Source: Vulcanisaeta distributa JCM 11217 (lineage in GTDB: Archaea; Thermoproteota; Thermoprotei; Thermoproteales; Thermocladiaceae). Taken from it: 64,000 nucleotides of DNA. The stretch's first letter is position 1; each line of letters starts with the position of its first letter. A program made the translations under genes and the position numbers. The stretch covers positions 124,001-188,000 of the forward strand of contig NZ_BBBJ01000001.1 of assembly GCF_001316005.1 (NCBI RefSeq). Reading direction: 5' to 3'. Shown here one piece after another: positions 270 to 63,718 of this stretch. Below the pieces are notes generated by a model. That model did not search any database. It saw only the letters and a program-made list of their open reading frames with translations, and had not been told where the DNA came from.

Positions 270-1130
270 GTGTCCGTTGAGGAATTTCGAGGCATCACCG
301 TGGATTCTGAGGATGGTGAGAGGTGGCTACTTATTGCCGACACTCACGTCGGCCTGGAGGTTGAGCTTGGTAAGAAGGGTGTTCGGATACCTAGCCAATC
401 AGCCAGGATAGCACAGCTAGTCCTGGACTTCGCCGAGAGGACCGGGGCAACTTCGCTGGCTATACTCGGTGATGTTAAGCATGAGATAGCGAGCATTGTC
501 GAGAGCGCCAGGGAGGTTAGGGAATTCCTAAATAGAATTAGCAGCAGATTCAATAAGGTGGTTTTGGTTAAGGGTAATCATGATGGGAATCTTGACTTAA
601 TATTGAGTAGCGACGCAAAGCCCAATGTATACCTCATAGACTCCAGGGGGGGCTTCATAATAAGGAGTAGGGATGGCAAAAACCTCCTACTGCTTCACGG
701 AAATTCAAAGCCTAGGATTGAGGATTTCATGAATGCTGACGTAATAATAATGGGACACACCCACCCAGCAATACTCATACAAGACGTAACTGGTTACGTA
801 ATGAGGGCACCCGTCATCGTTAAGGTACGTGTCGATAAGTCCGTGTTCGGTAAGAACATGTATAACACCGAAATAGGCGCCACGGGGGGGCCCATGAACA
901 TAATAGTACTACCAACCTTTAACCCATTGACCGTGGGCATGGACGTATTCGAGATATTCCCAAAGGACCTCGTCGAGGTCGAGACAATACTCCACTACGC
1001 ACGCACCTGGGAAATACTGAGCAACATAGAGGTTTACCTAACCGACATGACATACCTCGGTACAATGGATGTACTAGCCAGGATAAGGGAGGAGTTTGGT
1101 GAGGGTGGCTACGATGTTAATTGGTTATGA
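270..1130 (+). CDS. Metallophosphoesterase (calcineurin-like, archaeal MJ0037/COG1407 type)
   Basis: The 286-residue protein carries the full binuclear-metal phosphoesterase motif set in order: DTH (24-26), GDVKH (67-71), GNHD (102-105), LLHGN (about 141-145) and GHTH (162-165). These residues bind two metal ions and cleave phosphodiester or phosphomonoester bonds. The single-domain archaeal form is often annotated as an ICC-like phosphoesterase; its substrate is unknown. The GTG start at 270 lies about 26 nt after TTTTAAGG, as expected for a leaderless message. Two runs of seven G (646-652, 884-890) sit in frame and may each add a spurious Gly. The stop overlaps the ATG of the next small gene (ATGA). 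Confidence 0.85.
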   Translation: MSVEEFRGITVDSEDGERWLLIADTHVGLEVELGKKGVRIPSQSARIAQLVLDFAERTGATSLAILGDVKHEIASIVESAREVREFLNRISSRFNKVVLVKGNHDGNLDLILSSDAKPNVYLIDSRGGFIIRSRDGKNLLLLHGNSKPRIEDFMNADVIIMGHTHPAILIQDVTGYVMRAPVIVKVRVDKSVFGKNMYNTEIGATGGPMNIIVLPTFNPLTVGMDVFEIFPKDLVEVETILHYARTWEILSNIEVYLTDMTYLGTMDVLARIREEFGEGGYDVNWL

Positions 1131-1399
1131 ATGTTATTTTACACGTGCTTAAAGAAGCCTATGAATTTAAGGATTTACCGTTAAGAGAGCTAATTAAGTG
1201 GTTTTATGATAGGTTGTTGGCAGGGATTTTTAAGGCTATTATCATTAGCTCTACCGTGTTTGGTATTGTATTACTTATTTCCGCATTAGTCTTGACTGTG
1301 AAACAGTGTGTACACACTTCTTTCCTTATACTATATTATCCTAATAATGGCTATCGTGTTAATGGCGAACTGCTCATTAATCGTGTAAGTAAGCCTTAA
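1127..1399 (+). CDS. Small single-pass membrane protein, unknown function
   Basis: About 90 residues: a soluble amphipathic N-terminus (KEAYEFKDLPLRELIKW), one clear membrane segment (IIISSTVFGIVLLISALVLT, about residues 38-57) and a short polar tail. The ATG at 1127 overlaps the phosphoesterase stop as ATGA, suggesting translational coupling; a TTG at 1121 is the alternative start. It is the first of four consecutive small membrane-protein genes on this strand. I do not recognise a family. Confidence 0.5.
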   Translation: MNVILHVLKEAYEFKDLPLRELIKWFYDRLLAGIFKAIIISSTVFGIVLLISALVLTVKQCVHTSFLILYYPNNGYRVNGELLINRVSKP

Positions 1400-1426
1400 A
1401 TTATTGTCACCGTTAATCATTATGTT

Positions 1427-1864
1427 ATGAAGAACTTAAGGTCTCTTGTATTGAGTAGAGAGTTTAGGTTTGGTGTTGCCTTTTTAGTTATTGGTATAGT
1501 ATTGTTTATGATAACGGTGTTCCTTAAGCCTACTAGTGTGTTAAATGATGGATTTTATGGAGGGCTTATTTCATTATCCATTGAATTACTGTTAATAGGC
1601 TTGATGCTTATATTAAGCATGTATATTACGGCTGGAGGAAACGCATTAATCATTAACTGCGGTATGGCTAAGAAATTAATTGATGGTATTTCCGGCACCA
1701 CAGCATTGCTGGTTATTTGGGTCCCAATTATTTTATCAATATATCATATAACGATAAACTCACCAATAGCTATAGTACTTATTACACTAACTGGCGTAAG
1801 CTTCTTTGCCTGGGCCTATGTATATGGCTATACGAGGAAACATTGCTGGGGGGGTAAACCTTAA
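1427..1864 (+). CDS. Small polytopic membrane protein, unknown function
   Basis: 145 residues with four hydrophobic segments (about 15-32, 44-65, 87-107, 112-131) and a charged tail with Tyr-Thr-Arg-Lys-His-Cys. The ATG at 1427 follows a TATA-like CCTTAAATT at about 1394-1402, a leaderless arrangement. A seven-G run (1848-1854) near the 3' end encodes Gly-Gly after Trp. The N-terminal part resembles the next gene (Gly-x-x-Leu/Val-x-Gly-Ile-Val-Leu-Phe-Met), hinting at paralogy. No function can be assigned. Confidence 0.6.
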   Translation: MKNLRSLVLSREFRFGVAFLVIGIVLFMITVFLKPTSVLNDGFYGGLISLSIELLLIGLMLILSMYITAGGNALIINCGMAKKLIDGISGTTALLVIWVPIILSIYHITINSPIAIVLITLTGVSFFAWAYVYGYTRKHCWGGKP

Positions 1865-1889
1865 AGTATTTTTGTTTAGATTATGAAAT

Positions 1890-2141
1890 ATGAGATGGTG
1901 CGCCCTTAAGAATGCGTTCAATTGGTTCATTAGGTATAGTATTGGTTTTATAGTGACCGGTATTGTATTATTCATGGCGCTACCATACCTTAAGCTGATC
2001 TTAAGTTCCTCAATACTCATTATCACTATATATACTTACTCAGTAATATTCATGGGAATCGGTATTATGCTAATTATTATGTACTTAATAATATACACAC
2101 TATGCAAATGCGAAAAGAAAAACAGGGTAAGCCTTAAGTAA
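1890..2141 (+). CDS. Small membrane protein, unknown function
   Basis: 83 residues with two long hydrophobic segments (about 18-36 and 39-71) and a basic Cys-containing tail (LCKCEKKNR). The motif TGIVLFMALPYLK near residue 23 matches IGIVLFMITVFLK in the preceding protein, so the two are probably paralogues. The ATG at 1890 is 26 nt from CCTTAAAGTATT (about 1859-1870), so it has its own leaderless promoter despite close packing. Confidence 0.5.
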   Translation: MRWCALKNAFNWFIRYSIGFIVTGIVLFMALPYLKLILSSSILIITIYTYSVIFMGIGIMLIIMYLIIYTLCKCEKKNRVSLK

Positions 2142-2172
2142 TGATGCGCGATTTTACTATTAAGTTAAGGTT

Positions 2173-2595
2173 ATGAGAAAATGGCTCGGGGGGGTCCTAG
2201 TAATCATTGCCATAGGGCTTGGACCAATTAGTATTGGTTTTGCCCTGAGACTACTCGGCCTAATAACGATAGGTATTTTCTATGGACTGGCCTTAGCCTC
2301 CCTCGAGATTTTCTTAATATTTACAGCACTTGCCATTGGTTCAATAATTAAGAGGAAATATGGAATTAATTGCAAAGTCGTCAATAGACTTTATGGCTTT
2401 ACTGGCTTTTACATATCAATATCAATGCTTGCAGCGTTTACACCATTAGTATTTAACATACATACGCCTCAATGGGTCAATACTACAATAACCATGGCAT
2501 TAATTGTTGATCTTGGCTTAATGCCAGTTTGGTTCTTAATGATGACCTTCGAGGAAAGCTGCCGAAGGACCTCTAAATTAATCAATAATACTTAA
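2173..2595 (+). CDS. Small polytopic membrane protein, unknown function
   Basis: 140 residues with about four membrane segments (residues 5-25, 28-58, 73-92, 105-125) and a polar Cys-containing tail (EESCRRTSKL). It is the last of the four small membrane-protein genes. A seven-G run at 2188-2194 codes Leu-Gly-Gly-Val next to the start. An AT-rich box (about 2149-2160) lies at leaderless distance from the ATG at 2173. No family recognised. Confidence 0.55.
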   Translation: MRKWLGGVLVIIAIGLGPISIGFALRLLGLITIGIFYGLALASLEIFLIFTALAIGSIIKRKYGINCKVVNRLYGFTGFYISISMLAAFTPLVFNIHTPQWVNTTITMALIVDLGLMPVWFLMMTFEESCRRTSKLINNT

Positions 2596-2847
2596 TACTT
2601 GAGATATGGATCTTCATCATGAATAAGATAATAAAAGTATTATAAAAATTCATAATAACCCTAAGCATTTTAATAAATCACCATAATGCTAACTGAATAT
2701 TCATACTATATGCGTAAATCAATGCACTCCTGACCCCCCCTTTACGCATTGCCTTTGATGTTTATTAGCTTACGGCCTAATTGTGTAATCATTATTACCA
2801 TTAAACCCTAACAATTTAATAACTAGTTGATAACTGCCAATCATTGT
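2596..2847. other. AT-rich intergenic region upstream of tpiA
   Basis: About 250 bases without a convincing gene on either strand. It is AT-rich, contains a seven-C run (2734-2740), and its right end supplies the promoter-like CAATTTAAT (about 2811-2819) for tpiA. No RNA gene motif was found. Confidence 0.5.
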
Positions 2848-3523
2848 ATGAGACTTCCAATATTAATTATAAACATGAAAGTGTACACTGAGGTACTCGG
2901 TAAGAGATCCCTTGAACTTGCTAAGGTTGCCGAGGCGGTTTCCAAGGAGTTGGGCGTGTCAATTGCGATAGCCCCGCCAATCACTGAGCTTAGGCTTGTG
3001 GCTGAGAACGTGGGAATACCCGTTTATGCCCAGGGCGCTGACCCGGTTGAACCCGGGGGGGCTAGGACAGGGCATGTGCCGCTTGAGTTCATTAAGGAGG
3101 CTGGGGCGTCGGGGGGGTAATCCTTAACCACAGCGAGAATAGGCTTCTCCTAAATGACCTTGGTTGGCTCGTTAATAGGGCGAAGGGTCTCGGTCTGGAA
3201 ACCCTCGTGTGCGCGCCAGACCCATACACAAGCGCTGCTGCCGCGGCTCTTGAGCCGACTGCGGTGGCTGTCGAGCCGCCTGAGCTGATTGGTACGGGTA
3301 AGGCCGTGAGTAGGGAAAAGCCTGACGTAATTGTGAAGACTGTAGAGCTTGTTAAGAGGGTTAGTCCAGGCATTCCCGTGATTACGGGGCTGGTATTGAG
3401 AGTTATGAAGACGTTAAGAAGGCCCTAGAGCTTGGTACGCAGGGTGTGTTGGTGGCGAGTGCGATAGTTAGGGCTAAGGACTGGAGACAAAAAATAATGG
3501 AACTCGCGAATGCCCTGCATTAA
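2848..3523 (+). CDS. tpiA: Triosephosphate isomerase (frame broken twice as written)
   Basis: Interconverts dihydroxyacetone phosphate and glyceraldehyde 3-phosphate in glycolysis/gluconeogenesis. Across frames the archaeal-type ~225-residue TIM is complete: ILIINMKVY near the start (normally N-x-K), EPG(G)ARTGHV, then [29 protein letters not shown] and [11 protein letters not shown]. Two indels break it. The run at 3111-3117 has seven G where the frame needs five, and ACGGGGCTGG near 3384 has four G where five are needed. A second seven-G run (3055-3061) is in frame but inserts an extra Gly into EPGARTGH. I chose ATG 2848 over an upstream TTG because archaeal TIMs start just before this beta strand. 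Confidence 0.88.
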
Positions 3524-3528
3524 TTGAC

Positions 3529-4084: not shown

Positions 4085-4195
4085 GGATGCTAGGTAGCCG
4101 AGCCTAGCCCTATGAATTTTGACGGCAAGCTCGTCGTAATTTATGCTCTCAAGTATGGCAATAATACCAGGTAATCCCTCGCTTAATAAACCATC

Positions 4196-4956: not shown

Positions 4957-5049
4957 AGCATACCTAACTGTTATCATAACTTAAAAACTAAACTCATTGG
5001 GAATGAGTACGTCGAAAATAAGTAATGAATTATGTCAGCATTAGGTTTT

Positions 5050-6100: not shown

Positions 6101-8833
6101 TTGTTTGCCCTCCTGCCTATGCCTCTTAATTATTTGTCTAAGCACGTACTGCAGTATTCCTCCATTAAGGAAGTACTGAACCTCCATCGGCGTGTCGAGC
6201 CTCACAAGTAGTTTCGTCTTAATAACCCTACCATCGGGTTTATGGATGACCAAGTCAACGGTCTGCCTAGGCTTTAATCCCTGGGACAGCCCCACTATGT
6301 CGAAGGTCTCATCACCGGTTATACCCAGCTTATCCACGTCCTCACCCTCCATGAACTGTAGCGGTAGTATACCCATCTCAACCAGGTTACTCCTGTGTAT
6401 CCTCTCAAAACTCTTCGCAATGACTGCCTTAATGCCCAGGAGCTTTGGACCCTTCGCAGCCCAGTCCCTCGAGCTACCGGCACCGTACGTCTGCCCAGCG
6501 AGTATTATTAGTGGCACCTTCTCCTCCTTATACTTCATGGCCGCGTCAAACACGGTCATTAACTGCCCATCAGGCCAGTGAATAGTGTACCCACCCTCAA
6601 TGACCTTACCACCCATCCTATTCCTAACGCCCTTACTCCAGAACGCGCCTCTCACCATAACCTCCCAATTGCCCCCCCTCCTAGTACCAAAGGTGTTGAA
6701 GTCGCTTGGTTTAACACCAAGCGATATTAAGTACTTACCTGCAGGTGAGTCGGCAGGTATTGAGCCTGCCGGTGATATGTGGTCCGTGGTTATGTTATCG
6801 CCAAGCACCAGCAATGCCCTGGCACCAACTATGTCCTTAACCTCCACAAGCCTATCCGGATCGAAATCTTCAAAGAATGGTGGTCTCCTTATGTACGTAT
6901 TATTTGGATTCCACTGATATAGATCCCCCCCACTCGGCGCCTTCAACGTGTTCCACTCATCAGGCACTAAGTCACCAATCCTGGTGTACTTCTCCGTGAA
7001 CTCATCAGGCGTTACATACCTCTCAACATAACTCCTAACCTCATCATCACTGGGCCATAGGTCTTTCAGGTAAACAGGCTTACCATCGCTGGTGTACGCC
7101 ACAGGTTCCTTCGTTAGGTCCTTATTGATGGTACCCGCTAATGCATAAACCACGACCATGGGCGGCGAGGCCAGGTAATTAGCCCTAACATCTGGGTGAA
7201 TCCTACCCTCAAAGTTCCTGTTACCGGAGAGTACTGCCGCCGCCACTAGGTCATTCTCCCTAATTGCCTTAACAACGGGCTCTGGCAATGGGCCTGTATT
7301 GCCAATACAGACCATACAGCCAAAGCCAGTTATGTAGAAACCAATCTTCTCAAGGTACTGAAGCAGCCCTGACCTCCTTAAGTACTCCTCAACAACCCTA
7401 GAGCCCGGCGCCAACACGGTCTTAACGTATGGAGGTGGCGAGATTCCAAGCTCCACAGCCCTCTTGGCAACTAAGCCTGACGCCATTAATAGGTATGGGT
7501 TACTCGTGTTGGTGCAGCTTGTTATTGCGGCAATGGCCACAAAACCATCCTCGAGCTCTACCTTCTTACCGTCAAGCTCTATGATTACCTTCTTCCTACC
7601 ACTTATGTTCCTCTTCTTATTCCTATCCTCGATGACTGGTTCAAGGCTCTTGGGCACATCGCTCAATGACCTCCTCTGCCATGGGAGTGAGGGGGGGCCA
7701 GCGAGACTCGGCTCTATGGCTGATAAGTCAATATTAATCACCTGGCTATACTCAATATCGCCCTCCTTCGGCGAGCCAAAGACTCCCTGTTCCATGAAGT
7801 ACCTCTCAACGAGCGATATTAACCATTCATCCCTACCCGTAAGCCTTAGGTAAGCCAGTGTCTGCTCATCCACTGGGAATAACCCGGTTGTTGCGCCATA
7901 CTCAGGCGCCATGTTGGCTATTGTTGCCCTGTCAGGGACGGGCAATTCCTTAACACCCTCTCCGAAGAACTCAACGAACTTATCAACCACGTTATACTTC
8001 CTAAGGGTCTCGGTTACGTATAGCACTATGTCCGTAGCCGTGACACCAGGTCTCGGCTTACCATAAAGGTGAACACCAACGACCTGCGGTGGTAATACCG
8101 CTATTGGTTGACCGAGAAGTGCGGCTTCAGCCTCAACACCACCAACACCCCAACCAACAACACCAAGTCCGTTAATCATCGTGGTGTGGGAATCCATGCC
8201 AACGACAGTGTCGAAATACGCAAGCTTCTCGTTAGGCCCGAGGTCCTCAGTCATCACAACCCTAGCAATATGCTCAAGGTGCACCTGGTGTATTATACCA
8301 GTGCCTGGCGGGAAGACCCTGAAGTTCCTAAAGGCGTTCTGAGCCACTTAAGGAATTCATACCTCTCCGCATTCCTCTCAACCTCAAGCTTAATGTTCAA
8401 TCTAACCGCATCAGGCCTACCCCAGTAATCGGCTTGTACGCTGTGGTCAATTATTAGGTCTGTCGGTACCTGCGGATTAATGACCTTTGGGTCAATACCA
8501 TACTTAGCTACTATCTCCCTCATCACCGCCAGGTCGACTAGCAGGTACTCCCGTGTAGTCCTGCATTAGGACCCTCGCCACCTTTATCGGGACCTCCTTA
8601 GTCCCTGGGTTCTTCGGGTTCCAATGCAGTAAATTCTCAATATCCTCCTCAGTGATTGCCTGCCCGTCGTAATTCCTTAGCAGGTTCTCTATGAAGACCT
8701 TGATTGTGTATGGGAACCTGGCAATGTCAAAGCCCTCCCTCTCAAGGGCCTTTAATGAGTAATAACGAACCTTGATGCCGCCTACATCCATTACGCTTAA
8801 AGTATTCCATAAGTTGGGCAGGTTCTTGGCCAC
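6095..8833 (-). CDS. acnA: Aconitate hydratase, AcnA/IRP type (frame broken as written)
   Basis: Isomerises citrate and isocitrate through a [4Fe-4S] cluster in the TCA cycle. Visible parts: PYTIKVFIENLLRNYDG near the N-terminus, VDSHT-like GMDSHTTMINGLGVVGWGVG, AAITSCTNTSNP and GFGCMVCIGNTG (the three cluster cysteines), TTDHISPAGSIP, and AGQTYGAGSSRDWAAKGPKL in the swivelling domain. About 912 residues, normal for the family. Two breaks: near 8550, where two bases seem missing after GVPA, and near 8341, where TGGCTCAG should read TGGGCTCAG. A seven-C run (6672-6678) turns the conserved RRGNWEV into RRGGNWEV. Starts at GTG 8833. Confidence 0.9.
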
Positions 8834-12665: not shown

Positions 12666-13210
12666 CGCCATAAGCTCAAGCACCAAATCGCCCTTTGCAA
12701 CGTATATATCGCCACCATTACTTAGTAATAAGGTTATTGATGAATCAAGAATCAACGTCCCCCCCTAGCAGTACCCCCCCTACCTAACGCTACCGCGCAT
12801 CTGCCTTCACTAGTATTTAGTGCCGCGATTGTATATATCGAACCCGGGATTACCTGATCCTTAACAATTACCTCAGTCACGCCAATAGCGCTGACCACCT
12901 CGGCTTTAACAAAGCCTAACAATGATAACGCCTCATCAACACTCCTCGCATTACCAATTCTCTTAACGAGACTTATTACGGCCGATAATACGCCCCCCCT
13001 CGCAGTACCCCCCCTTTGAATAGGTATTGCCCCCCCTCCATAAGGTAGTAGGGATAAGACGACGGAGCCTTTAACCGTGCATGGCTTACTCACGGAAATT
13101 ATAACACTACGAGGAGACACATTACAATCATTAACCCTAACGATATCCTCACCTAACTCCCTAACCACATCAACCAACCATTGAGGCGGTTCGCCAAATA
13201 CATAAATCAA
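12615..13210 (-). CDS. Unknown protein with repeated RGGTARGG segment (frame uncertain)
   Basis: As written the frame stops at 12752 after RGGTARGGR. If the seven-base run at 12759-12765 were five, it would run on to TAA at 12615 with plausible sequence (ILDSSITLLLSNGGDIYVAK). Total ~198 residues. The segment RGGTARGG occurs twice (about residues 65-72 and 143-150), each time flanked on both sides by seven-base G runs: 12759, 12774, 12993 and 13008. A fifth run lies at 13030. No family recognised. The N-terminus (MIYVFGEPPQWLVDVVRELG) looks like a beta-alpha unit. Confidence 0.45.
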
Positions 13211-17766: not shown

Positions 17767-19031
17767 CGCAGATGTCACTTGACAAATATTTAGAGCCCTA
17801 CAAGAAGTGGGGCACGAAGTACTCCCTATGGCCGATACATCTCGTTACTGCGTGCTGTGGTGTTGAGATGGCGCATACCTGGAATCCGGCATATGATGCG
17901 GAGAGGCTTGGTTCATTACCATGGCATGCGCCAAGACAGACAAACCTAATCCTTATTGAGGGTACAATAACCTTCAAGATGGCCAGGTCCTCAGGTATAT
18001 TTGGGAGCAAATGAGTGATCCTAAGTACGTTATTGCCATGGGCTCCTGCGCCGCCGAGGGAGGTATATTCTGGAATAGCTACCACACCGTACCCGTCAGT
18101 AAGATAGTACCCATTGATGCCTACGCGATCGGTTGCCCACCACGCCCGAGGCCGTTATCCAAATGATTAGGATTGTTCAGAGGAAGATAGAGACGGGCGA
18201 GGCCAAGGCCAATGTTAAGCCAAAGACGATTGACTTAACGAAAATATTCACACCATCACCAACTAAGCAACCTGCACCAAACCCACCGCACAGGATAACC
18301 CCCCCCAATCCACACATACCCATTTGCCAGGAGAAGAAGGTGGAGTGGCCCTTCGGTTATGAATTAATAAACAATCAATTAATGCCCGCACTCAAGGAAT
18401 CGGCTAAGAAGATCGTTGTAACTGACGTTAATAGAATATGCGTTGATGCAGAACCCAATAAGTTAAAGGATGCCGCATTATCGTTGTCAAAGCTTGGCTT
18501 TGACCATGTTAAGTCCGTCAATGTCATTGACGCGCCTCACGAGAATAAGTTCTACGTTGAGTACTGGATCTCAAGCTACAGTAAGAAGGAGTTAATGCCG
18601 GTACTCATATCATTAACGACGGAGATACCCAGGGACAATCCCAGGGTACCAAGCCTAATTGATATTTGGCCGAGTGCGGACTACATGGAGCGTGAAATGT
18701 ATGACTTCTTCGGCGTTTGGTTTGAGGGTAACCCATGGATGGGAAAGAACTTCCTACTTGACCCAGACACCCCCCTGTTAAGTTCCCGCTTAGGAAGGAT
18801 GTACCAATAGTTAGGGAGTTCTACATAGTCGATAGGGAATTCCCAGGACTACCGGTGGCACCACCACAGCCGAAACCGACTGCTGCACCGCAGAAACCAG
18901 TCCAGGCACCAGCCCAACCAAAGCCTGCGCAGCAAGCTCCACAACCAAAGCCCACAGAAGCTGCACCGCAATCAAAGCCAGCTCAGGAAAAGCCAGGTGA
19001 GGGTAAGCAGGAGGTGGGTAGCACCGGGTGA
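17763..19031 (+). CDS. nuoBC: NADH-quinone oxidoreductase subunits B and C in one frame (frameshifts as written)
   Basis: NuoB part: TACCGVE (tandem Cys), GSCA and GCPPRPE supply the four ligands of cluster N2. NuoC part: from about [11 protein letters not shown] through [10 protein letters not shown] and FLLDPDTP. Between them runs a Pro-rich linker without a stop or an evident start, including an eight-C run (18299-18306). The tail after NuoC is a Pro/Ala/Gln/Lys-rich stretch of ~50 residues. Breaks: GGG read as GG near 17988, CCCC as CCC near 18149, and six C for four at 18770-18775. GTG 17763 overlaps the nuoA stop; ATG 17772 is possible. Confidence 0.82.
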
Positions 19032-20977: not shown

Positions 20978-22182
20978 ATGCTACCTAGTGACTATGGGCC
21001 TGGGGGATATTGAGTTTTGGATTGAGCCCCCCCATTACTACTTTCTATACAATCTGATGTTAAGAAAATGCTTGATGAAGGCGTTGATTCACAGGTACTC
21101 GTCCTGGTCCGTGAGTTGAGGAAGGTCATTGAGAATAAAGGATTAATTAAGGGCATTGGTTCATCAACAAAGACCTTCAATGCCTATGCGATTGATTCGA
21201 GTTATCCAACGCCACCTCTTGAGCTTATTGGCGGTGTTATGACAGTACTCTCCTATGGCTATGTTGGTTACCTCAATGGCTCTTACGATAGATACATGAC
21301 TGGCGAGGTTGTTTTTGAGGATGTTGGTGAGTTTGAGAGGGTAATTACGAGGAGGGCCCAGGTTAGGGAGAGGGAGTTGGCAATTAAGCTTCTTCGCGAG
21401 AAGACTAAGGGCAGGAAGGGTGTTGACTTAGTAATACTTGATGGTGAAATACCGGTACACCCGCTGCCGTATAACCTACCTGTTGAGGGTGGTGTGCTTG
21501 CTCGCGTGACTAACGTGATTGGCGACTTACTTGATCTGGCCATGAAGACTAAGACCCCCCCAGTGGTTGGTGTTGTTAAGAGGGTTAGGTCTAGGTTCCT
21601 ATCGGTACTAGTTAATGAGTGCTTGCCGATGAATGATAAGCTCATTGCAAGCCTAGTCCTAAATAATGGTGAGTACATTGTGCTTGGGAGTTATGGCGAT
21701 ATCCTTCCTCAGTGGGTTAAGATAAACTATAGTGATTGTGAATTAAGGAAGAGGTGTAAAGGTTCAAATTGTAACGATGTTAAGGAGTTAATGAATAGAA
21801 GACTTAGTGAGGGATTGGCAAATCTCGATAAGGTATTTAGTGGCTCTGATCATCCTGGTCTGAAGATGCTGCGGGACATATACGTGGTGTTTTATAAGCC
21901 ACGTAATGGCGCACCTGCGGTTAAGCTAGAAATTTTCAATCCAAATAATGGAGTGAGTATTGAGGAATTAGTGGCTTATCTTGAGTCTCAAACAACCGAT
22001 ACTGGTTACCCCCCCTTCCTACTTGATAGGTTGATGAGTATGTGAGGCTTGATCCCAGGATACTGGATTATGTGAGGAACTTGATAATTAAGGGCTCAAG
22101 GGATTTAAACCCAGCCCTATTAACGATGCTTCAGCTAACTAATCCGCAGAAGGCTTACCTTGTGAGGAGGCTTGAGGCGTGA
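20978..22182 (+). CDS. nurA: NurA 5'-3' nuclease (frameshifts as written)
   Basis: Nuclease that works with HerA and Mre11-Rad50 in DNA end resection. The core has YAIDSSYPTPPLELIGG (catalytic Asp) and LVILDGEIP (second acidic site), and the C-terminal end LDPRILDYVRNLII is in another frame. About 401 residues reconstructed. Breaks: GGGGG near 21002 should be four, the seven-C run at 21027-21033 should be five, and AGGTTGATGAG near 22028 should have GGG. I start at ATG 20978 because GCTTTATATACC lies 25-35 nt upstream; ATG 21068 is the first start in the intact frame. herA is 26 kb away. Confidence 0.8.
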
Positions 22183-24716: not shown

Positions 24717-25388
24717 TTACGACAGGCTTCGTATGGGCACCCCCCCTCCCAAGTATTTAGTTGCTAGATCAATGATAAACTGAGCAGATTCGATTAATCT
24801 CTCATCATCTACTCCAGGAACGCCTGCCGTCACTATTAATACATTCTTTGTTTCGGGCCTTATTTTCGTAGTTTCAGAGTCCCTATATGGATAGACATGG
24901 AGTATTAAGCCGTCAATTGTTGATAGAATTATCTGATTACTGCTAAGGGTCTTCTGCGGTGAACCAATCGGGTTGAAGATTTCCCCATCCCTGGCATAGC
25001 GAATAATGAGGTCCTTACCGCCAAAACTATCAATGTCATAAAGCCCAATTGGTACTAAGTATCTTATGCTCGCAACATTGCCGATATCGACCACCGGATT
25101 AATCCTCGGCAAATCCTCGCCCCTAAGAATTCTCCTAAGTAAAGCCTCCTGGGCGGGTCTTTGCTTCGTTGGGTCTATACCAAGTTCATGCCAGTAGAAG
25201 TCCCTGTAATACCTAATGATTGGGTCATCCTTAAGCTTATCAAGGCTATACTTCGACCTAACCTCCTTAACTACATCATTGATTATAACTAATAACTCAC
25301 TTGGGTACTCTCTATTCTCAACATTACGCACAATGCCAACACCAACGAAGACCTTACCCCTGAGCTTATCATCTATTGAGAATTTCAC
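24717..25388 (-). CDS. B3/B4 domain protein (PheRS beta-like tRNA-binding fold)
   Basis: About 223 residues from GTG 25388. The family core is YYRDFYWHELGIDPTKQRPA, RRILRGEDLPRINPVVDIGN and IGLYDIDSFGGKDLIIRYA, as in COG3382 proteins that share the B3/B4 fold of phenylalanyl-tRNA synthetase beta. Function unknown, possibly tRNA or amino-acid editing. The frame stays open to a GTG at 25454, but that region contains a C/D sRNA on the same strand, and TAAAAGTATTAAT (25411-25423) lies at leaderless distance from 25388, so I prefer the shorter form. Confidence 0.75.
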   Translation of the reverse strand: MKFSIDDKLRGKVFVGVGIVRNVENREYPSELLVIINDVVKEVRSKYSLDKLKDDPIIRYYRDFYWHELGIDPTKQRPAQEALLRRILRGEDLPRINPVVDIGNVASIRYLVPIGLYDIDSFGGKDLIIRYARDGEIFNPIGSPQKTLSSNQIILSTIDGLILHVYPYRDSETTKIRPETKNVLIVTAGVPGVDDERLIESAQFIIDLATKYLGGGVPIRSLS

Positions 25389-25533: not shown

Positions 25534-25588
25534 CGGTGATGACCACCTCGACCCCCTGAGCAATGAGGAGTGGTATTACGACTGACCT
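25534..25588 (+). ncRNA. Box C/D small RNA, plus strand of a divergent pair
   Basis: C box GTGATGA (25536-25542), 13-nt guide, D' CTGA (25556-25559), 4-nt spacer, C' TGAGGA (25564-25569), 12-nt guide, D box CTGA (25582-25585). The TATA-like box at 25504-25514 lies at the right distance. Guides are CCACCTCGACCCC and GTGGTATTACGA; targets not determined. The RNA ends at the 3' end of csl4, which is transcribed from the other strand. Confidence 0.78.
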
Positions 25589-26162
25589 CAAGCCCAGTAC
25601 TCAACAAGGCTAACCTTACGCCTAACCACAGCACCACAATTAGGGCATTGAAGCAACTCTCCACCCTTCCACTTCAATGGATGACCGCACCTAGGGCACT
25701 TGGCATAAACCACACCAAGCTGCGCATCCCTTAGGGTCAATGTATACGGTGGATCCCTCGATATTACCTTCGCCCTAATTATATCGCCAACCCCAAGAAC
25801 CTCACTGGCACCGCTGGGTTTTCCATTTAATAGTTGGGATGGAGGTACTATACCTGTCACGTCATCCTTTAACACCACCTTATTGCCATTATTTTCAACA
25901 CCAATTATCTTCACAATGACAACCCTATCATTTGGCATTGCCACAACCTTACCATAAACAATATCGTTTACTTTCAATAATGAATTACTACTCCTTATTG
26001 GCTTAACGCTGATAACATGCTCCCTATCATTACGTACGACTATCCCCCCCATAACCTGAGCCCTTAATTTACCATCCGCATCAACCTCAACATTCTCCCC
26101 CCCGGCAAGTACTCCTCAGCAACGCCAACAACATCTCCTGGAGCAACAATCTCCATACCCAT
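25588..26162 (-). CDS. csl4: Exosome RNA-binding subunit Csl4 (frameshift as written)
   Basis: Cap subunit of the archaeal RNA exosome. About 190 residues: N-terminal domain starting MGMEIVAPGDVVGVAEEYLP, an S1 domain (KVNDIVYGKVVAMPNDRVVI and following) and a zinc ribbon CPRCG...CPNCG. The N-terminal piece is out of frame because the run at 26097-26103 has seven bases where five are needed. Another seven-base run (26044-26050) gives MGGIVV. ATG 26162 is preceded by CTATAAG at about -30. Confidence 0.85.
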
Positions 26163-27204: not shown

Positions 27205-30200
27205 GTGTCCGTTATTGATTCACGCTTCACCCTGGAGACGCAATTCGATGTGAAAAGAATTGAGGAGGTTGTTAGGCAGTATTGGCGTGAGGCGAACATT
27301 GAGGGTAAGTGGCATGAAGGACCTGAAAACGCCAATAAGTGGTATACGTTCCTCGAGGGACCACCAACGACTAATGGCTTCCCACATGTTGGCCATATTA
27401 GGGGGGGTAGGACGTACAAGGACGTTGTCCTTAGGTACCATAGGCTGCTTGGTTATAGGGTTTGGGCTCAGGGTGGTTGGATGAGCAGGGATTGCCGGTG
27501 GAGATTGAGGTAGAGAAGAAGCTTGGGCTCAGGACTAAGAAGGATATTGAGAAGGTTGGCTATGATAAATTCAGCTTGAGTGCGATTCATTGGTTGATTA
27601 CTACCTTGAGAAGTGGAGGGAGGTTGGGACGAGGAGGCTTGGTCTATGGTTGGACCTTGATAAGGCCTATGAGACTAGAAAGCCATACTACATAGAGCAC
27701 GTCTGGGCCTTCCTAAAGAATGCCTGGGAGAAGGGATTGCTATTCGAGGACTATAGAGTGTTACCATTCTGCCAAGGTGCGAGACAGCCTTAGTGATGCT
27801 GAGGTTGACCAGGGCTATGAGGATAGGGAGGATCCGTCAATATACGTTAAATTCCCCGTTGAGGGTGCAAGCAACACTTACCTAGTTATTTGGACCACAA
27901 CCCCCTGGACGCTAATTGATAATGAGGCTGTGGCCGTTAATCCCAACTTTAACTACGCATTGGTTAAGGTCAGTATTAATAACACTACGGAGTACCTATG
28001 GCTCGCTGAGCCCCCCCTTATACCTAAGTTAATGGAGAAGTTCGGTGTTAAGGATTATGAAATTGTTAGGGTTGTTAAGGGTTCAGAATTGGCTGGGACC
28101 AGGTATAGGCATATTTACATGGAGAAGGTGCCAATACATGCCAGTCACATTGATAGGCTCATTACGTGGTTCTTGCGGACTTCGTAACGCTTGAGGAGGG
28201 TACTGGGCTTGTTCACATAGCCCCCCCTGCCCACGGTCCTGAGGACTTTGAGGTTGCCAAGAAGTATGGTTTGCCTATTACTAATTCCGTGGAGATTAAC
28301 GGAATATTTAATGAGAATGGCGGTGAATTCCGCGGTAAGTATTGGCTCGATGTTTCCCAGGAAGTAATTAAAGATCTGAAGGAGAGGGGCTTACTTCTTC
28401 ATTACGAGACTATAGTACATGCATACCCACACTGTTGGAGGTGCGGTACACCGTTGATTTATAGGTCTGATAGGCAGTGGTTCATTAGGGTATCCGCATA
28501 TAGGGATAAGCTGGTTGAGGAACTTAAGAAGGTGAAGATATACCCAGACTTCCTTAGGGATAGGTTTGATAACTGGGTTGCGAATGCCAGGGATTGGACG
28601 ATATCGAGGAGTAGGGTCTGGGGTACGCCACTGCCTGTCTGGCGTTGTAAGGATGACCCAAGCAAGATTCTAGTAATAGGTTCTCTAGATGAGTTGAGGA
28701 AGTACGCCAAGTTCATACCTAATGTACCAAGTGAGATGCTTGTTCATAGGCCTTGGATTGACATGGTGAAAATAGAGACTGAAGACTGTAAGGAATGGGT
28801 TAGGGAACCATTCGTTGTGGATGTTTGGATGGATAGCGGTGTGGCCTGGATAGCCAGTATTGATGGTCTTAGGAATAAGGAGTTGTTTGATAAGTTATAT
28901 CCGTATGACTGGGTTACGGAGGCGATAGACCAAACGAGGGGGGGTTGGTTCTACTCATTACTCGTTACCTCTGTCCTATGGATGGGTAGGGCGCCCTATA
29001 AGTCCATACTAATTAGTGGCCACGTTGTTGATAAGTACGGACAGAAGATGAGTAAGTCCAAGGGCAACGTGGTTTGGGCTGAGGACTTATTCAATAAGTG
29101 GGGGTGCTGACCCAACGAGACTCTACCTACTTACTAAGTCCGCTCCCTGGGATACCATGTCCGTTGATCCTGACGAGATTGCCGAGACCAGGAGTGTACT
29201 TTCAATACTTTGGAATGTGGTTAAGTTCGCGGACACGTACATGACCCTCGACAGGTTTGACCCAGCGGTGCATAGGCTTGAGGGATTAATTGATAAGGGG
29301 GGGTTGATTGAGGATAGGTGGCTACTCAGTAGGTTCAATAGTAGGTTGCGTAGGTTCATTGATTATATGAACAACATGGAGCTTCACATGGCCGCAAGGG
29401 AGTGGGTTAGCCTCATCGTCGATGACTTGAGCCATGGCTATATCAGGCTGATTAGGCGCAGGGTCTGGACTGAGGAGAGTAGGGAGGATAAGTACGCAGC
29501 CTATGCAGTGCTTTATTACGTGATTAAGGGTGCATTGATAATGGGCTCAGCCTGGTACCCCCACATAACTGAGTACCTGTGGAATGCCTTCATTAGAAAG
29601 TTTGAGAGGAATGAGTCGGAGAGCGTCCACCTCACGCTACTGCCTCAGGTAAATGAGAAGTACATAGATGAGAAATTAGAGGGTACCTTTGAGCTATTGT
29701 TTGCCATGTTCTCAGACATCGCGGAGATGAGGAATAGGATAAAGGTTAAGCTTAGGTGGCCATTGGCAAGGGCTGTTATTAAGGTTGAAAATGCCAGTAA
29801 CCTGGAAATGCTTGGTCAGGTGAGGCACTTGCTCGAGTACCTCGCCAATGTTAAGGATGTGGAATTCGTGAGCAAGATTGAGCAGTGCAATGAGGAGGAG
29901 TATGCTAGGGCTCAGGGAAGGGGGGGTTACGAGATATGCCTTAGTAAGGTCATGGATAAGAAACTGTACTATGAGGCATTGGCTAGGGAGATTGTTAGGC
30001 GCATACAGACCATGAGGGCTAAGGCCAACCTTAAGGTTGATGAGAGGATAAGGGTTTACGTGAGTACGGGAAGTGATGACCTAGTATCAGCCATTAAGGA
30101 GTTTATGGGTTACATAACGAATGAGGTTAGGGCGATGGATATAGTGATTGGTAATATTCCAGCAAGCGCATTTGCCATGGATTGGGATATTGAGGATATG

Positions 30201-34410: not shown

Positions 34411-34494
34411 CCATTAATATGAACAGGCATAAGTAATTAGATGGGTAAGTTATTTAATATGGCGTATATTATCCATAGTGGGGGGGGTTAGGGC

Positions 34495-36034: not shown

Positions 36035-36101
36035 TCCTACTCTATAATACGCTGAGCATTAGCTTGATTTCTTTATATACCTACATGTGATTGTTAATTC
36101 G

Positions 36102-37218
36102 GTGACTTCAGTGCTTAGGTGCTTCAGTGATTTTGTAAGCTTTATTGTGAAGTATCCATTCAGTAGGGAGGGCCTCACCAGATTCAGGGAAATAACGAGC
36201 GAGAGGGGGGGGTTATACATCAACGACCTTGCAAACTCAGCAATAGGTAAACAACTGCTTCAACGAGCTTACGAAATACTCAGCGAAGCCATTATAAGGA
36301 ATTCAATAACCGATGACCCCGACTTCGGTGAAGATGAGCTACTGGCTCATTACATAGCCATAATCCTTGCGGCACACCTTGATAGGGCCCTTTGGAGGAG
36401 GTTCGCAGATGTTGAGAGTAAGAGGTTCTCAAGTAGGTTAGCACTTGAGGATCCGGACTGCGTGATATACCTCGCTAAGGAATTTGGTATTAATGCCGCG
36501 AGATTAAGGGACCTCGACATATATGACGAGAACCTAGCATTGGCATTCGACGTAGGCGTCAGGGTTTGGGATTACCTGAGGTTCATGCCTAGGAACGATC
36601 CCTACTGGAAGCTCGTTAATAGGTACTTGCTTAAGGGTTGGGTATTAATGACGTATAAGGACCTTGTTAGGCTGGTGGAGGAGGCGGTTGAGAAAAGGTC
36701 CTTGAGCTAATAAGTAAGGCATCCGAAAATTTAGATGAGACGAAGCATTAATCGACGCATTAGGCGGTATGAAGGAGCTTATGGAGTACAGGACCGGGTC
36801 TGCGGCAAAGGTTAGGGTCCAAATAACGGGGTTAACACCACCATGCATGGATGCAATAATTAACGAGATCAAGTCTGGGGGTAACCCGAGTCACCAGGCG
36901 AGGTTTGCCGTGGCTGCCTACATGCTCAGGAGGTGCCATGACCTCGAGGGTAAGCCCGTGGAGGATTGCGTTGAGGATGTGGTTAACCTGTTTAGGACTG
37001 TGGCTGATTTCGATGAGAAGAAGACTAGGTATCAAGTGGAGCACATAGCCGGCCTTAGGGGGGGTGGGCATAAATTCTACATGCCCCCCCCATCCTGCCA
37101 GGAAATGAATAGCCTTGGTCTATGTCCAACAAACCTAGGGTGCGGTGTTAAAAATCCACTGCAGTATACGGCTAAGGCAATTAGGAAGTATCAATCAATG
37201 CAGAAGGCACAGAGTTAG
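36102..37218 (+). CDS. priL: DNA primase large subunit PriL (frameshifts as written)
   Basis: Iron-sulfur subunit of archaeal/eukaryal primase, partner of PriS. About 372 residues ending with the cluster region: LTPPCMD, FDEKKTRYQVEHIAG, PSCQEMNSLGLC and LGCGVKNPLQY. Breaks near 36700 (AGGTCC should be AGGGTCC) and near 36748 (AAGCATTA should be AAGGCATTA). Eight-base runs at 36205-36212 and 37084-37091 are in frame and probably add Gly and Pro. GTG 36102 is favoured over 36087 because CTTTATATAC lies at -24 to -31. Confidence 0.87.
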
Positions 37219-49155: not shown

Positions 49156-51050
49156 ATGTCTAACCCACCTGAGTTAGGTCCGAAGATTGGTGTTGAGAAG
49201 GCTGAGGTTACGGATAAGCAGCTCAGGAAGGCGTTAAATGTGTTCGATATTGCATACCTAGTAATAGGCGCAGTAATTGGTAGTGGTTGGTTATTCGGCT
49301 CATTCTATGCAGCGGCAACGGCGGGTCCTGCGGCGATAATTTCCTGGCTACTTGGGGGGGGTATATTCCTAATGTTCGTGGCATTCTCATTCGCGGAGTT
49401 AGGCGGTATGATACCAAAGTCTGGGTCTATAGTGAGATATCCACAGTATAGCCATGGCAGCCTCGCCTCATTCATACTTGCATGGGCCTACTTCCTAAGC
49501 GCAATAACAGTGGCACCCGCTGAGGCTGAGGCTGTGGTCACGTACATGTCATCCTACGTCCCTGGTCTCCTCACACCAACCGGTGTCTTAACCCTTGAGG
49601 GTGGGCTTGTGGCATTTGCTTTCCTAACATTCTTCTTCCTCCTTAATTACTTTGGTGTTCATGTTATGGGTAAGACGAATACTGGTGTTGGTTGGTGGAA
49701 GCTAATAATACCAATACTCACGGTGGTCCTATTACTCGGCTTATTCCTACATCCTGCGAACTTCACGGCAGTGCCTGGTGGTTTTGTACCATACGGATGG
49801 GCGCCTGTGTTCATGGCATTACCAACAACTGGTATTGTATTCGCCTATCTAGGTTTTAGGCAGGGTATTGAGTATGGCGGTGAAGCTAAGAATCCACAAA
49901 GGGATCTGCCACTAGGTACTGTGGTGGGCTTCTTGATATGCATGGCAATTTACGTATTACTTCAGGTTGCCTTTATTGGTGCCATTGATTGGTCTAAGCT
50001 TAGCCTTAAGCCTGGTGATTGGGCCGACCTAACATCAACAGTGCTAAGTAGTGGGCCGTTTTATGAGATAATGAAGATAAGTGGAATACCAATACTAATG
50101 GCCTTCGGCATAGTCCTACTAATTGACGCAATAGTCTCGCCATCCGGCACAGGCTGGATATACACAGGTACATCGGCAAGGACATTCTATGGAATGGCTG
50201 CCGACGGCCACTTACCCGACTGGTTCCTAAAGCTTAATAGGTGGAAGGTACCAATGTGGTCGACGATCGCTGCCTGGCTCGTCGGTGCGTTATTCCTAAT
50301 ACCATACCCAGCATGGGTATACATAATAACATTCATAAGCTCAACAACGGTATTATCATACGTCGTTGTTGGATCAACGCTTGTTGTGCTTAGAAAGACG
50401 GCGCCTGAAGCTCCTAGGCCGTTTAAGTTACCTGCCCATACGTGTTTGGTGCTTTAGCTTTCATATTTGCCTACCTAATACCGTATTGGTCTGGTTTTAC
50501 GACTATGTGGGGGGGTGTTACGGCATTGGTTCTTGCCGGCTTACCTCTATTCTTCATGTATACCGCGTCCAATAGGTTTGGTGTTAAGAGGAGTAACGCC
50601 GCGATTCTCGGCATTATTTACTGGATTATCTTGGCATTATCTACGATATTCCTCATTTACTACGACATAATCACTCCATACAACTCCATAGGTCCACTAC
50701 CACTGAGTATGAAGTATGTGCTGCCATTCGTGGCTTACGTCGTAATAATGCTTGCAGTTACCGTGGCCTTCATTTACGTGATCCGCATGTGGTCTAATGA
50801 GGAGGGTAGGCAGCACATTAGGGCTGGTTGGTGGGTCCTCGGGGTCTTATTCACTACGTTAATACTCGACTTCGTTGGACCATTCAGCGTCTGGAAGTCA
50901 CCACCACTACCATTCCCATACGACACAATAACCGCAGCAATAATCGCCCTAATACTATTCTACTGGTCCGTAAGAAGCGGAATACCAACAAGGGACCTAG
51001 AGGTAGTGCTAAGGGAAATGGGGGGGGCGATAAAGGAGGAGAGAAAGTAA
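49156..51050 (+). CDS. Amino-acid permease, APC superfamily (frameshift as written)
   Basis: About 631 residues with 12-14 membrane segments. VIGAVIGSGWLFGSFYAA in TM1 is the APC helix-break motif, and EYGGEAKNPQRDLP is the loop found in amino-acid transporters. The frame breaks near 50440 (GCCCATACG should be GCCCCATACG, giving PAPYVFGALAF). Two eight-G runs (49354-49361, 51020-51027) and one of seven (50509-50515) are in frame. Substrate not evident. Confidence 0.83.
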
Positions 51051-56914: not shown

Positions 56915-57010
56915 CGGCTTTACCAGGATTTATCTAATTAATAAATTCTTCTCTATAGGTTTTCATCATCAATAATTAAGTAAATAGGTTATATTTAATG
57001 GTAATAAGGC

Positions 57011-57942: not shown

Positions 57943-58048
57943 TAATGAATAATCATTATCGTGATAGAAAAGATTTATGATTAAAATAACGTAACAGATT
58001 AATGTGAGGAATTTTTAAATTAGTAATTAATACGTAGATTCGGCGTTA

Positions 58049-60843: not shown

Positions 60844-60844
60844 C

Positions 60845-62256
60845 TCAATACTCCACAGTCTTTACCGCAGCTTCTTCGTACTTAGGCGCTCTCTTTAGGT
60901 ATAGGTAAACCATGAACACCGCTAATGACGGCATGGCAACTTCAACAATTAACACAAGCACCGCTAACCAAACCGGGAAGTAAAGCGTCGGATTTAGTAA
61001 ACCGCCTAGTCCAACGGGTACGCCAGTAATTATTGGTGGACCACCATTTGGATTGGGATCCGCCTGAACAAGTATGAACGGATACCTACCTGACTCAGCC
61101 GCAACTGCGCCGCCAATTGATGCAAAGGCTGCGAAGAACGGCATTAAATAAACGCCACTCCTCTCAAAGAAGTTTGCCAATGTCCTAGCCCAGCCAAAAC
61201 GACCAAAGTATCCTGGGAATAAGTACCAAAGCGATAATGCGCCGCTCCATATACCAAGTAATATTCCGAATATTACCATGAAGACCCAGTAGAAAACAAA
61301 CACGAGGCCGGCGGCCTCTCATAAGCCGGCCAGCTATAATAGCCCCCCCAGAATGCGTGGTTGAATGTACCATAGGCAAAGAAGCTCGTTAATGGATCAA
61401 CCCTGAGACCACTCCAGAACATGCCCTCTAGAGCCGCCAACTTAAGTGGGTCATCCTGCAGAACAAGTTCACCCTGTAGGTGACCAATTACGAATCCCTG
61501 TATTGCAGTTAGAATCGCCACTGTTGGCACTAGGATCTTAAGCATCATTAATCTCTCCGGTTTCCTATCACGTATGTATAGGTATAGGTATATCGCGGCT
61601 ATTATTGACCAGGTAAGTATGACAGCCGCTAGTATACCGTGGAATATGAAGACGTTGGCGCCCCACCAAAACATATTCCAAGCATCAGCCGGCGAGGCCC
61701 ACTTAACTACGTAATCCGTTAAACCAACCACATTCTGCCCAGTGGCCTGGTATAGGTTAATTACTTCGAGACCTGGCGGCCTCATGCTCAATGATGCCAT
61801 GACCGCCAATATGTTGTAAGCACTCCAGTATCCACCAAATGCTGCGGCTATACCTATTATCCAGTGAAGGACTTGGTTCTTAATCTTATTCCACGTAAAT
61901 ACGTAGAGCGGCAATAGAATTACCTCAGTTAGGAATGCAAATAACTCCAAGTAAAATGGAAGCACTATGGCCTCACCAATAACTGATATGAAGTTGCTCC
62001 ACAAAGTAACTAGGCCAAACTCAACAAGCGTGCCGAAGGCAGCACCAACACCAAAGAATATTGTTGATATCACCGAGAACGTCCTAGCAGTATTATACCA
62101 GAACTGATTATGGTTCCTAATGTATAGGTATTCAGCAACTACGGCTAATAAAATTGTACCTAAGAAACTTGATGCCATTGATACATGAGCCAAGACGCCT
62201 ATAGCAGTCGCAATCCTAACATCAGTTGGTGCTCCAAGTATGGGTTGGTTTACCAT
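60845..62256 (-). CDS. cydA: Cytochrome bd-type oxygen reductase subunit I (frameshift as written)
   Basis: About 470 residues. VLAHVSMASSFLG (heme-ligand His region), then EFGLVTLWSNFISVIGEAI and YLELFAFLTEVIL supply the conserved Glu residues of the proton path. Quinol-binding Q-loop near RMRPPGLEVINL-like sequence. The frame breaks near 61310 (CCGCCGGCCTCG should have GGG), giving RPPGLVFVFYWVF. With cydA' it would form a quinol oxidase reducing O2. TATA not examined in detail. Confidence 0.82.
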
Positions 62257-62373
62257 CGCACATAACTAGTGAATTAACAATTTATATAGTGATGCGTCCT
62301 ATATTTTTACTTAAATAGGCATATGTATGTTCACTAAAAATACTAGCATTTAGTTATAAATAATTAAATTTAT

Positions 62374-63718
62374 TTAAATATAAAAGAATGCATCAACCCT
62401 GAGGAACTGCCTCGCGGCAATTATTAGTGGATCCCAGACCTGGGTTACGGCAGGTAAGTAGGCTAGGTCGCTCATGAATAGGTCCTCAACGGTTGCCCCC
62501 CTTAGCCATTAATGCCGCTAATGTATCGATTTTACCAAGCACATAGGAACCATCATCACCGAGCACTTGAGCACCTAAGATTCTCATGCTACTTTCATCA
62601 ATTATTAGTTTTATCGTAACATAACCACCGCCTGGGTAATACCTCGCCTTAGTCCTAGCTGTTATTGCGGCACTTCTCGCTTTAAATCCATGCCTTATTG
62701 CCTCCTGCGTTGTTAAACCCGTGCTTGCTATGTATAGGTTCATGAACCTGGTCATTGAGGTGCCGACAACTCCAGGGAACGCCATGGGCTTACCAGCTAT
62801 GTTACTACCTGCTACGAACCCCCCCATCTTATTAGCCGTAGTCCCAAAGGGGGGGTGCCAGTATGGCTCGCCAGTTATTAGGTTCTTGGTCTCAGCAACA
62901 TCACCCGCGGCATAGACATTCTCAATGCTCGTCCTCATGCGGTTATCAACCCACACGGCACCTGTCTCGCCAATGCGCAGATCGAGTTGCTTCGCCAATT
63001 CCACATTTGGTTTTATACCCGTTGCGAGTACTACGGCATCAACAACGTACCTACCGCCATCAGTAATTACTATCTGCTTACCACCCTGGTAATCAATCTC
63101 GATTATTCTCTCATTCAATTGTAACTTCACGCCATGCCTAACTAACTCATTTATAACGATATTACCCATATCCTCATCCAGGGACTTACGTAGTGGATAA
63201 TTAGACCTACCAATCATCAGCACCTCCTTACCCCTAAACCTAAGCGCTCGGCAACCTCAAGTCCAATGTAGCCAGTACCAATAATGCCAACGCTATGCAT
63301 TGAATTAAGGGCTTCCCTCAACACAATGGCGTCTGCTGGGTGATGCACAGTAAATACGTGATCTCCCTTAATTGGTATGCTCGGTATTGCTGGTACGGCA
63401 CCGGTGGCGAGTACTAGGTAATCCCACTCCACCTTATTACCCCTATTCGTGACTACGTAACCTGGGCCAACCTCAATGACGGTCTCATTAGTCCTAACAT
63501 CAATACCCCTCTCCCTCCTGAAGTAGTCGGGTGTGTAGTGCATGAATAATTCATAATTATCAAATAACCCCCTCAAGGTAGTAAGGAATACCGCAGGGTG
63601 CATGACTAACCATGCCCGTCCTCTCAAAAACCACAATCTCAAAGTCGCGTTTCAATCTCCTTATTCTGGATGCCGCACTCATTCCAGCGGCACCGCCACC
63701 GATTATTACGACCCTCAT
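62374..63718 (-). CDS. NADH oxidase / CoA-disulfide reductase family flavoprotein (frameshifts as written)
   Basis: About 448 residues. FAD site [17 protein letters not shown], redox-active [12 protein letters not shown] site [21 protein letters not shown]-motif VYAAGDVAE and TTANKMG. Breaks: five G near 63567 should be four, CGCTTAGG near 63243 should be CGCCTTAGG, and six C at 62496-62501 should be five, after which the end [20 protein letters not shown] reads through to TAA 62374. Two seven-base runs (62819, 62849) add residues. Related enzymes make H2O or reduce CoA disulfide. Confidence 0.85.

Follow-up and report, generated by a model that had tools for sequence, protein, structure and literature searches.

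The window, a 64,000-nt stretch of the Vulcanisaeta distributa JCM 11217 draft (contig NZ_BBBJ01000001.1; genome G000), carries genes for triosephosphate isomerase, aconitase, NurA, Csl4, a class I tRNA synthetase and a PriL-like protein, and is scattered with G/C runs of exactly seven bases (Table 1). The gene names given in an earlier sequence-only reading largely stood. AcnA and Csl4 exceeded their NCBIfam cut-offs, and TIM (ORF 2827-3120), NurA and tRNA-synt_1 (28166-29110, the putative ileS of that reading) exceeded their Pfam cut-offs, whereas PriL was the best NCBIfam match to a fragmentary frame but fell below the cut-off. The same reading had proposed that the runs insert an extra residue into conserved proteins and elsewhere break the frame. 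Alignment to relatives agreed on both counts: four bases are needed at the runs in the triosephosphate isomerase gene (encoding EPGGARTG), in the putative ileS and at all three sites in aconitase, and five at each of the frame-break sites 3111, 21027 and 26097. The triosephosphate isomerase ORF ends at a stop immediately after the G7 run at 3111.

Table 1. G/C runs in the window and the lengths needed according to unaffected relatives
Positions	Run	Location	Needed length	Relatives
646-62855	All 78 exact-seven G/C runs	First at 646, last at 62849-62855; every position tallied
3055-3061	G7	Triosephosphate isomerase gene	4	8/8
3111-3117	G7	Triosephosphate isomerase gene, breaking the frame	5	8/8
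6672-6678	C7	Aconitase gene	4	7/7
6925-6931	C7	Aconitase gene	4	8/8
7691-7697	G7	Aconitase gene	4	7/7
12759-12765	C7		5	3/3
18299-18306	C8		5	5/5
21027-21033	C7	Directly upstream of open NurA frame (21068-22045, +)	5	5/5
26097-26103	C7	Just beyond Csl4 frame (25588-26052, -)	5	3/3
28938-28944	G7	Class I tRNA synthetase frame	4	3/3
34480-34487	G8		4	3/3
36205-36212	G8	PriL-like frame (36087-36710, +)	5	3/3
37084-37091	C8		5	3/3
49354-49361	G8		5	2/2
51020-51027	G8		5	2/2

A full tally of G/C runs in the window gave 63 of length four, 18 of five, 5 of six, 78 of seven (39 G and 39 C) and 6 of eight, in line with the earlier counts of 78 sevens, about six eights and about five sixes. A/T runs were normal, with no sevens and six sixes. 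By chance, exact sevens would number 6.6 (mean of 60 first-order Markov simulations, maximum 12; mean number of fours 305.9) or 1.9 (mean of 60 mononucleotide shuffles, maximum 5). An 80-kb sample of a complete congener (G008) held no sevens and 216 fours. The whole JCM 11217 genome has 2,031 + 1,826 = 3,857 exact G/C sevens in 2.08 Mb. The density of G/C runs of at least four was near normal: per 64 kb, the window has 170 and a 464-kb sample of the genome 206, against 138-211 for samples from four unaffected congeners. The anomaly lies in the lengths of the runs, and in G/C only. What extends from 646 to 62855 is an assembly-wide class of error and no functional element.

Occurrence among relatives was sporadic. 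The excess of sevens was seen in only two of 60 relatives, the V. distributa JCM 11216 draft (NZ_BBBI; G003) and one genome of another genus (G020); 3 of the 81 genomes returned for the class were affected. The three single-contig congeners carry 2-5 such runs per genome, and G/C sevens were absent from two other JCM drafts (G002 and G005). A strict ceiling of eight held in the G000 and G003 samples but was rejected because one C run in that of G020 has 12 bases. Inheritance of the tract state was also considered. At the 181 sites shared by G000 and G003, the states were 4/4 at 38, 4/7 at 43, 7/4 at 34 and 7/7 at 66, and these two affected congeners leaned towards agreement, though not significantly so (odds ratio 1.72, p=0.093).

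To estimate true lengths, all 170 window runs were aligned to up to 10 unaffected congeners and the commonest aligned length was taken as the needed one; 157 were usable after exclusion of 9 without a match and 4 that were misaligned, and segments scored as interrupted were left out of some comparisons. Among the 78 sevens, 62 need four bases and 6 need five (with a single relative behind 13243 and a tie of 5 and 3 at 24740), while 7 had no match and 3 aligned to lengths 1, 1 and 11, reflecting poor alignment. Five of the six eights need five, the exception being 34480. Conversely, true fours in the window were read as four (59 of 136, unaltered), five (11), six (3), seven (62) or eight (1), and true fives as four (1), five (7), six (2), seven (6) or eight (5). 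Relative to the congeners, 24 of 157 runs differ by a non-multiple of three and a further 67 by exactly three.

The errors extend to rRNA. A piece of the 23S rRNA gene aligned to G008 showed 14 mismatches and 143 gap columns in 2,233 columns, so that the errors are changes in homopolymer length and not substitutions. True fours in this piece were read as three (1), four (12), five (7), seven (22) or eight (1), true fives as five (3), six (1), seven (7) or eight (6), and true sixes as seven (1) or eight (3). With the single four-to-three case excluded, the share of lengthened fours that gained exactly three bases did not differ detectably between rRNA (22/30) and window (62/77; p=0.44). Lengthened true fives became six or seven rather than eight in 8 vs 5 cases in the window and 8 vs 6 in the 23S piece. 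A rule of always adding three was rejected, since five became seven about as often as eight in the window and 23S map. Output length instead tracks true length compressively (four to seven, five to seven or eight, six to eight). The earlier claim of a length fixed near seven whatever length is needed is thus only approximate: sevens dominate, but the output depends on the true length.

We then compared the states of neighbouring runs. Runs of the same base tended to agree, both being four or both seven, whereas a G run beside a C run tended to disagree. In G000 and G003 pooled, 78.0% of same-base pairs less than 30 bp apart were concordant (n=123, p=1.2e-5), compared with 25.0% of G-C pairs (n=60, p=4.8e-5), and pairs 150 to 300 bp apart showed no significant effect. 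These Fisher p-values treat overlapping pairs as independent; the shuffle tests of a signed statistic do not. At less than 150 bp that statistic gave z of 6.3 in G000 and 9.8 in G003 (0/1000 shuffles each) and 3.0 in the window alone (5/1000). G020 showed the same signature, and in each affected genome both neighbour effects had died away at a separation of about 150-250 bp, with triangular-fit ranges of 155, 215 and 255 bp (bootstrap intervals 105-245, 170-361 and 205-380 bp). Controls of 100 shuffles each gave z of 0.2 (G000) and -2.7 (G003, in the opposite direction) for A/T runs of four vs five, and -0.3 and -0.7 for G/C runs of three vs four and four vs five in unaffected G008. Two bins of opposite-base pairs ran contrary, towards agreement: 300-500 bp in the pooled genomes (p=0.023) and 5-10 kb in G000 alone (p=0.019). 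Regional clustering with G and C runs pooled gave no clear excess of neighbour agreement, a misleading null, since the opposing tendencies of same-base and opposite-base pairs cancel. Sequence context had no replicated effect. Flanks of 469 fours vs 756 sevens in G000 and 590 vs 950 in G003, at 24 positions each, fell below p=0.01 only at -3 in G000 (p=0.0044) and at -6 in G003 (p=0.0085), neither effect recurring in the other genome. For the two bases adjoining the run on either side, p ranged from 0.069 to 0.97.

The lengths in relatives, the rRNA damage and the read-length strand signature all favour an artefact, as the sequence-only reading had preferred. We conclude with high confidence that the G/C sevens are consensus errors of a short-read draft, absent from the DNA, and mostly true fours and fives over-called on one strand; very probably they are no real feature of the genome. 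Homopolymers of at least four of one nucleotide, G or C (the assembly is silent on which), would be over-called by about three bases, seldom beyond eight, while the complementary nucleotide would be called correctly. A G run is G in one read orientation and C in the other, and the error would then arise in one orientation only. Where the erroneous orientation was locally favoured the consensus would be seven or eight, where the other was favoured the true four or five, and a few mixed sites would give five or six. Over-calling of one base thus amounts to over-calling of one read orientation, from which the neighbour signature is expected in reads of about 200 bp; the range of 155-255 bp in 3/3 affected genomes agrees with this, indirectly, from the assembly. 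Sevens make up 61.7%, 61.7% and 63.8% of four-or-seven runs in the three genomes, more than half, so something beyond a simple majority between the orientations must enter the rule.

For a sister JCM draft (V. souniana JCM 11219; BBBK01000000) the documented platform is the Ion Torrent PGM (PMC9872577), and by likeness the present assembly was probably made on it too. Bragg et al. (2013; PMC3623719) describe median read lengths of 164-199 with 200-bp kits and, as here, homopolymer length errors with few substitutions in reads near 200 bp, variation between runs and some strand-asymmetric sites. According to the same paper, however, PGM typically under-calls long homopolymers, its error-prone flows tend to be A or T, and C/G deletions in runs of two or three account for most of its strand-asymmetric indels. 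Here only G/C runs are affected, those of at least four being called about three bases too long, apparently in a single orientation and often winning the consensus. An abnormal run or calibration must therefore be assumed; one might speculate that a per-nucleotide homopolymer calibration was mis-fitted from length four upward. In the open-access literature searched we found no description of a G/C seven error in these genomes.

Other flow sequencing, such as Roche 454, or a consensus fault of the assembler on flow data, shares the orientation-bound short-read over-call with our preferred explanation and differs in platform or step, so the probabilities of the two overlap; we regard it as unlikely. 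Flow chemistry errors are homopolymer-based. However, 454 reads are 400 bp or more, and ranges of 155, 215 and 255 bp suit 200-bp PGM reads better. Restriction to G/C and dependence on orientation are not what a pure assembler fault should produce, although the consensus step may contribute: another JCM draft of the period used Newbler 2.8 (PMC3931369). The earlier suggestion of an artefact holds, but long-read polishing as its source is disfavoured. Nanopore or PacBio errors are also homopolymer-based and can be strand-dependent, but kilobase reads should give kilobase correlation, and the correlation, of opposite sign for G-C pairs, spanned only 155-255 bp and had vanished past about 300 bp in all three affected genomes. 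The JCM 11216 draft, moreover, belongs to a JCM series with another member sequenced on PGM, and we consider a long-read base-calling or polishing origin improbable. A modified G or C misleading the sequencer on one strand would account for the base specificity, but PGM libraries are amplified first, which removes modifications, no replicated flanking motif was found and congeners are unaffected, leaving this very improbable.

Phase-variable poly-G and poly-C tracts of bacteria lie at particular loci and are heritable. The present runs resemble them in being G/C homopolymers of 7-8 bases, but here any G/C run of at least four is at risk, rRNA included, and its state follows a read-length neighbourhood. 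A biological process that lengthens G4/C4 tracts by about three bases, and is tolerated since the frame is kept, was the alternative raised by the sequence-only reading, and the commonest change, four to seven, is indeed in frame (62/77 altered true fours). Such expansion should preserve the frame in genes and spare rRNA. Instead, lengthened fives became six or seven at least as often as eight in both window and 23S, the share of lengthened fours gaining three did not differ detectably between rRNA and window, and no sign of frame selection was seen. A 23S rRNA longer by a net 135 bases, alongside 14 mismatches, could hardly function, single-contig congeners have few sevens, and tract states are not significantly shared with the affected congener. 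Opposite states of G and C neighbours over 155-255 bp are on the scale of read sampling, for which we know of no biological counterpart. We therefore give this alternative hardly any weight. Real sevens in the cultures, arising as strand-coupled short-range slippage lengthened G4/C4 tracts in growing cells of three archaeal strains from two genera, seem vanishingly improbable.

Over-calling in short reads of one orientation has practical consequences. Gene breaks and extra residues in the JCM 11217 draft should not be taken as biology. The three affected genomes, all of one archaeal family and each representing its species in the genome set used, carry thousands of false runs apiece and are unreliable for gene presence, protein lengths, pseudogene calls and rRNA-based work. 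Comparing same-base concordance with opposite-base discordance of neighbouring runs, and the range over which they persist, allows base-call errors confined to one read orientation to be detected and read length to be estimated when only an assembly is at hand. The completeness estimates of the three genomes are low (67%, 67% and 47%), which fits the run-length differences recorded in the window, 24 by a non-multiple of three and 67 by three.

The window contains 78 G/C runs of exactly seven bases ("sevens"). The corresponding counts at other lengths are 6 (eight bases), 5 (six), 18 (five) and 63 (four), and A/T runs show a normal fall-off with length. First-order Markov simulations matched in composition contained, on average, only 6.6 sevens and as many as 305.9 fours, confirming the excess described in the sequence-only reading. 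Across both strands, the window's own genome (2,076,046 bases in 19 contigs, completeness 67%) carries 3,857 exact sevens. The longest G/C run in samples of this genome and of the Vulcanisaeta distributa JCM 11216 draft (G003) was eight bases, and one C run of 12 was found in a sample of G020, an affected genome of another genus in the same family. G/C runs of at least four bases occurred at 170 per 64 kb in the window; the genome sample had 206 and G003 had 260, and samples of four unaffected congeners ranged from 138 to 211. This near-normal density indicates lengthening of runs already present, not the appearance of many additional ones. Only two of 60 relatives, G003 (4,803 sevens, completeness 67%) and G020 (7,958 sevens, completeness 47%), shared the excess; three single-contig congeners had 2, 4 and 5 sevens. 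A class-wide check that returned 81 genomes yielded the same three affected genomes. In a phylum draw of 398 genomes, in which G020 was not drawn, only the window's genome and G003 were high, the next highest having 340 sevens.

True lengths were taken from an alignment of the window with as many as ten unaffected congeners, as the length most often found at each site. This was possible for 157 of the 170 G/C runs, 9 being unmatched and 4 misaligned. Runs of true length four appeared as four (59), five (11), six (3), seven (62) or eight (1), and those of true length five as four (1), five (7), six (2), seven (6) or eight (5). The sequence-only reading had held the length to be fixed near seven, but the output depends on the true length. 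It had correctly identified sites 3111, 21027 and 26097 as carrying seven bases where five are needed, five being the true length at all three. Seven was the commonest length in relatives at none of the matched sites of the window; among the runs of six or more, for which lengths were compared relative by relative, two sites (21555 and 35874) had one relative with seven, compared to three and two relatives, respectively, with four. Stricter, uninterrupted comparisons matched the window's sevens to four bases in 21/21 cases for the complete congener G008 (probably V. distributa IC-017), and in 31/33, 13/14 and 3/3 for the congeners G002, G004 and G005. In larger samples the same held for 38/39 (window's genome, 464 kb) and 86/93 (G003, 460 kb), and A/T runs of four and five were nearly always unchanged. 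Overall, 66 usable runs were unchanged, 67 carried a clean +3, and 24, counted whether or not inside a gene, were off by a non-multiple of three. Some of the smaller length differences, though only a few, may be natural.

The 23S rRNA piece that opens contig C10 in the window's genome differed from G008 by 14 mismatches and 143 gap columns over 2,233 columns, with a net 135 extra bases. True fours appeared here as three (1), four (12), five (7), seven (22) or eight (1), true fives as five (3), six (1), seven (7) or eight (6), and true sixes as seven (1) or eight (3). The 16S piece of G003 and its flanks showed the same kind of damage. No difference in change pattern between rRNA and window was detectable (+3 share, p=0.44; unchanged share, p=0.11), and this comparison gave no sign of frame selection. 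An rRNA altered to this degree could hardly function. In family searches, the window's genome gave no 16S match and 23S matches in only three pieces near the start of C10, and G003 gave 16S in four pieces (C19) and no 23S match. Such searches may miss rRNA genes because of over-called runs, and contig gaps may share in the missing matches; four fragmented congeners likewise had no rRNA match.

If only one nucleotide were over-called, a run written as G would have a false length in reads of one orientation and its true length in those of the other, the reverse holding for C, and the consensus length would be set by the local balance of read orientations. Same-base neighbours should therefore agree, and G and C neighbours disagree, over one read length. 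A pooled test of G and C runs, run before the signed test, showed nothing clear. In the window's genome and G003 combined, same-base pairs within 30 bp agreed in 78.0% of cases (n=123, odds ratio 7.9, p=1.2e-5), compared with 25.0% for opposite-base pairs (n=60, odds ratio 0.07, p=4.8e-5). Significance extended to 150 bp and was absent at 150 to 300 bp; at 300-500 bp, one of 22 bins, opposite-base pairs gave p=0.023 in the other direction. None of 1,000 shuffles per genome reached the signed statistic within 150 bp (z 6.3 and 9.8, respectively); for the window alone, 5/1,000 did. Control run classes showed no positive effect, the A/T four versus five control in G003 giving z -2.7, in the opposite direction. 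G020 independently showed correlations of +0.50 (same-base) and -0.65 (opposite-base) at 0-40 bp. Triangular fits gave ranges of 155, 215 and 255 bp for the three genomes (bootstrap 105-245, 170-361 and 205-380). Sevens made up 62-64% of four-or-seven runs in all three, suggesting that the consensus favours the longer call beyond an even orientation vote. Together with the rRNA damage, this signature bears out the earlier preference for an artefact over real tract expansion: the over-call depends on true length and is very probably orientation-specific and a product of short reads. Of the base-calling or polishing error originally proposed, long-read polishing is probably not the source.

Ion Torrent PGM sequencing was used for the V. 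souniana JCM draft BBBK01000000 (PMC9872577), and another JCM draft is reported to rest on PGM reads assembled with Newbler 2.8 (PMC3931369). The correlation range found here fits the median read lengths of 164 to 199 given for PGM 200-bp kits in PMC3623719. In contrast to the over-calling of G/C runs seen here, the typical PGM errors described in that paper are under-calling of long runs and A/T-prone errors. This difference points to an abnormal run in this case. The PGM base-caller recalibrates homopolymers separately for each nucleotide, beginning at length four. A mis-fitted recalibration table for one nucleotide would yield both the length-four threshold and the base-specificity; we consider it a possible, if somewhat unlikely, specific cause.

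The JCM drafts G002 (Vulcanisaeta sp. JCM 16159) and G005 (JCM 14467) have no G/C sevens but do have A/T runs of 7-8; G008 and G004, sampled over 140 kb, showed none. At three of these runs in G002, relatives show six-base stretches, and of seven A/T sixes in G003, five correspond to 7 or 8 bases in a set that includes G002 and G005. A separate and weaker over-calling of longer A/T runs may be responsible. Judging by its sequence, the long frame listed below perhaps encodes an archaeal protein that is secreted or exposed at the cell surface.

Long frame in the window
Feature	Position	Strand	Remarks
Long frame, 548 aa	38891-40537	+	Hydrophobic stretch; serine/threonine/asparagine-rich body by eye
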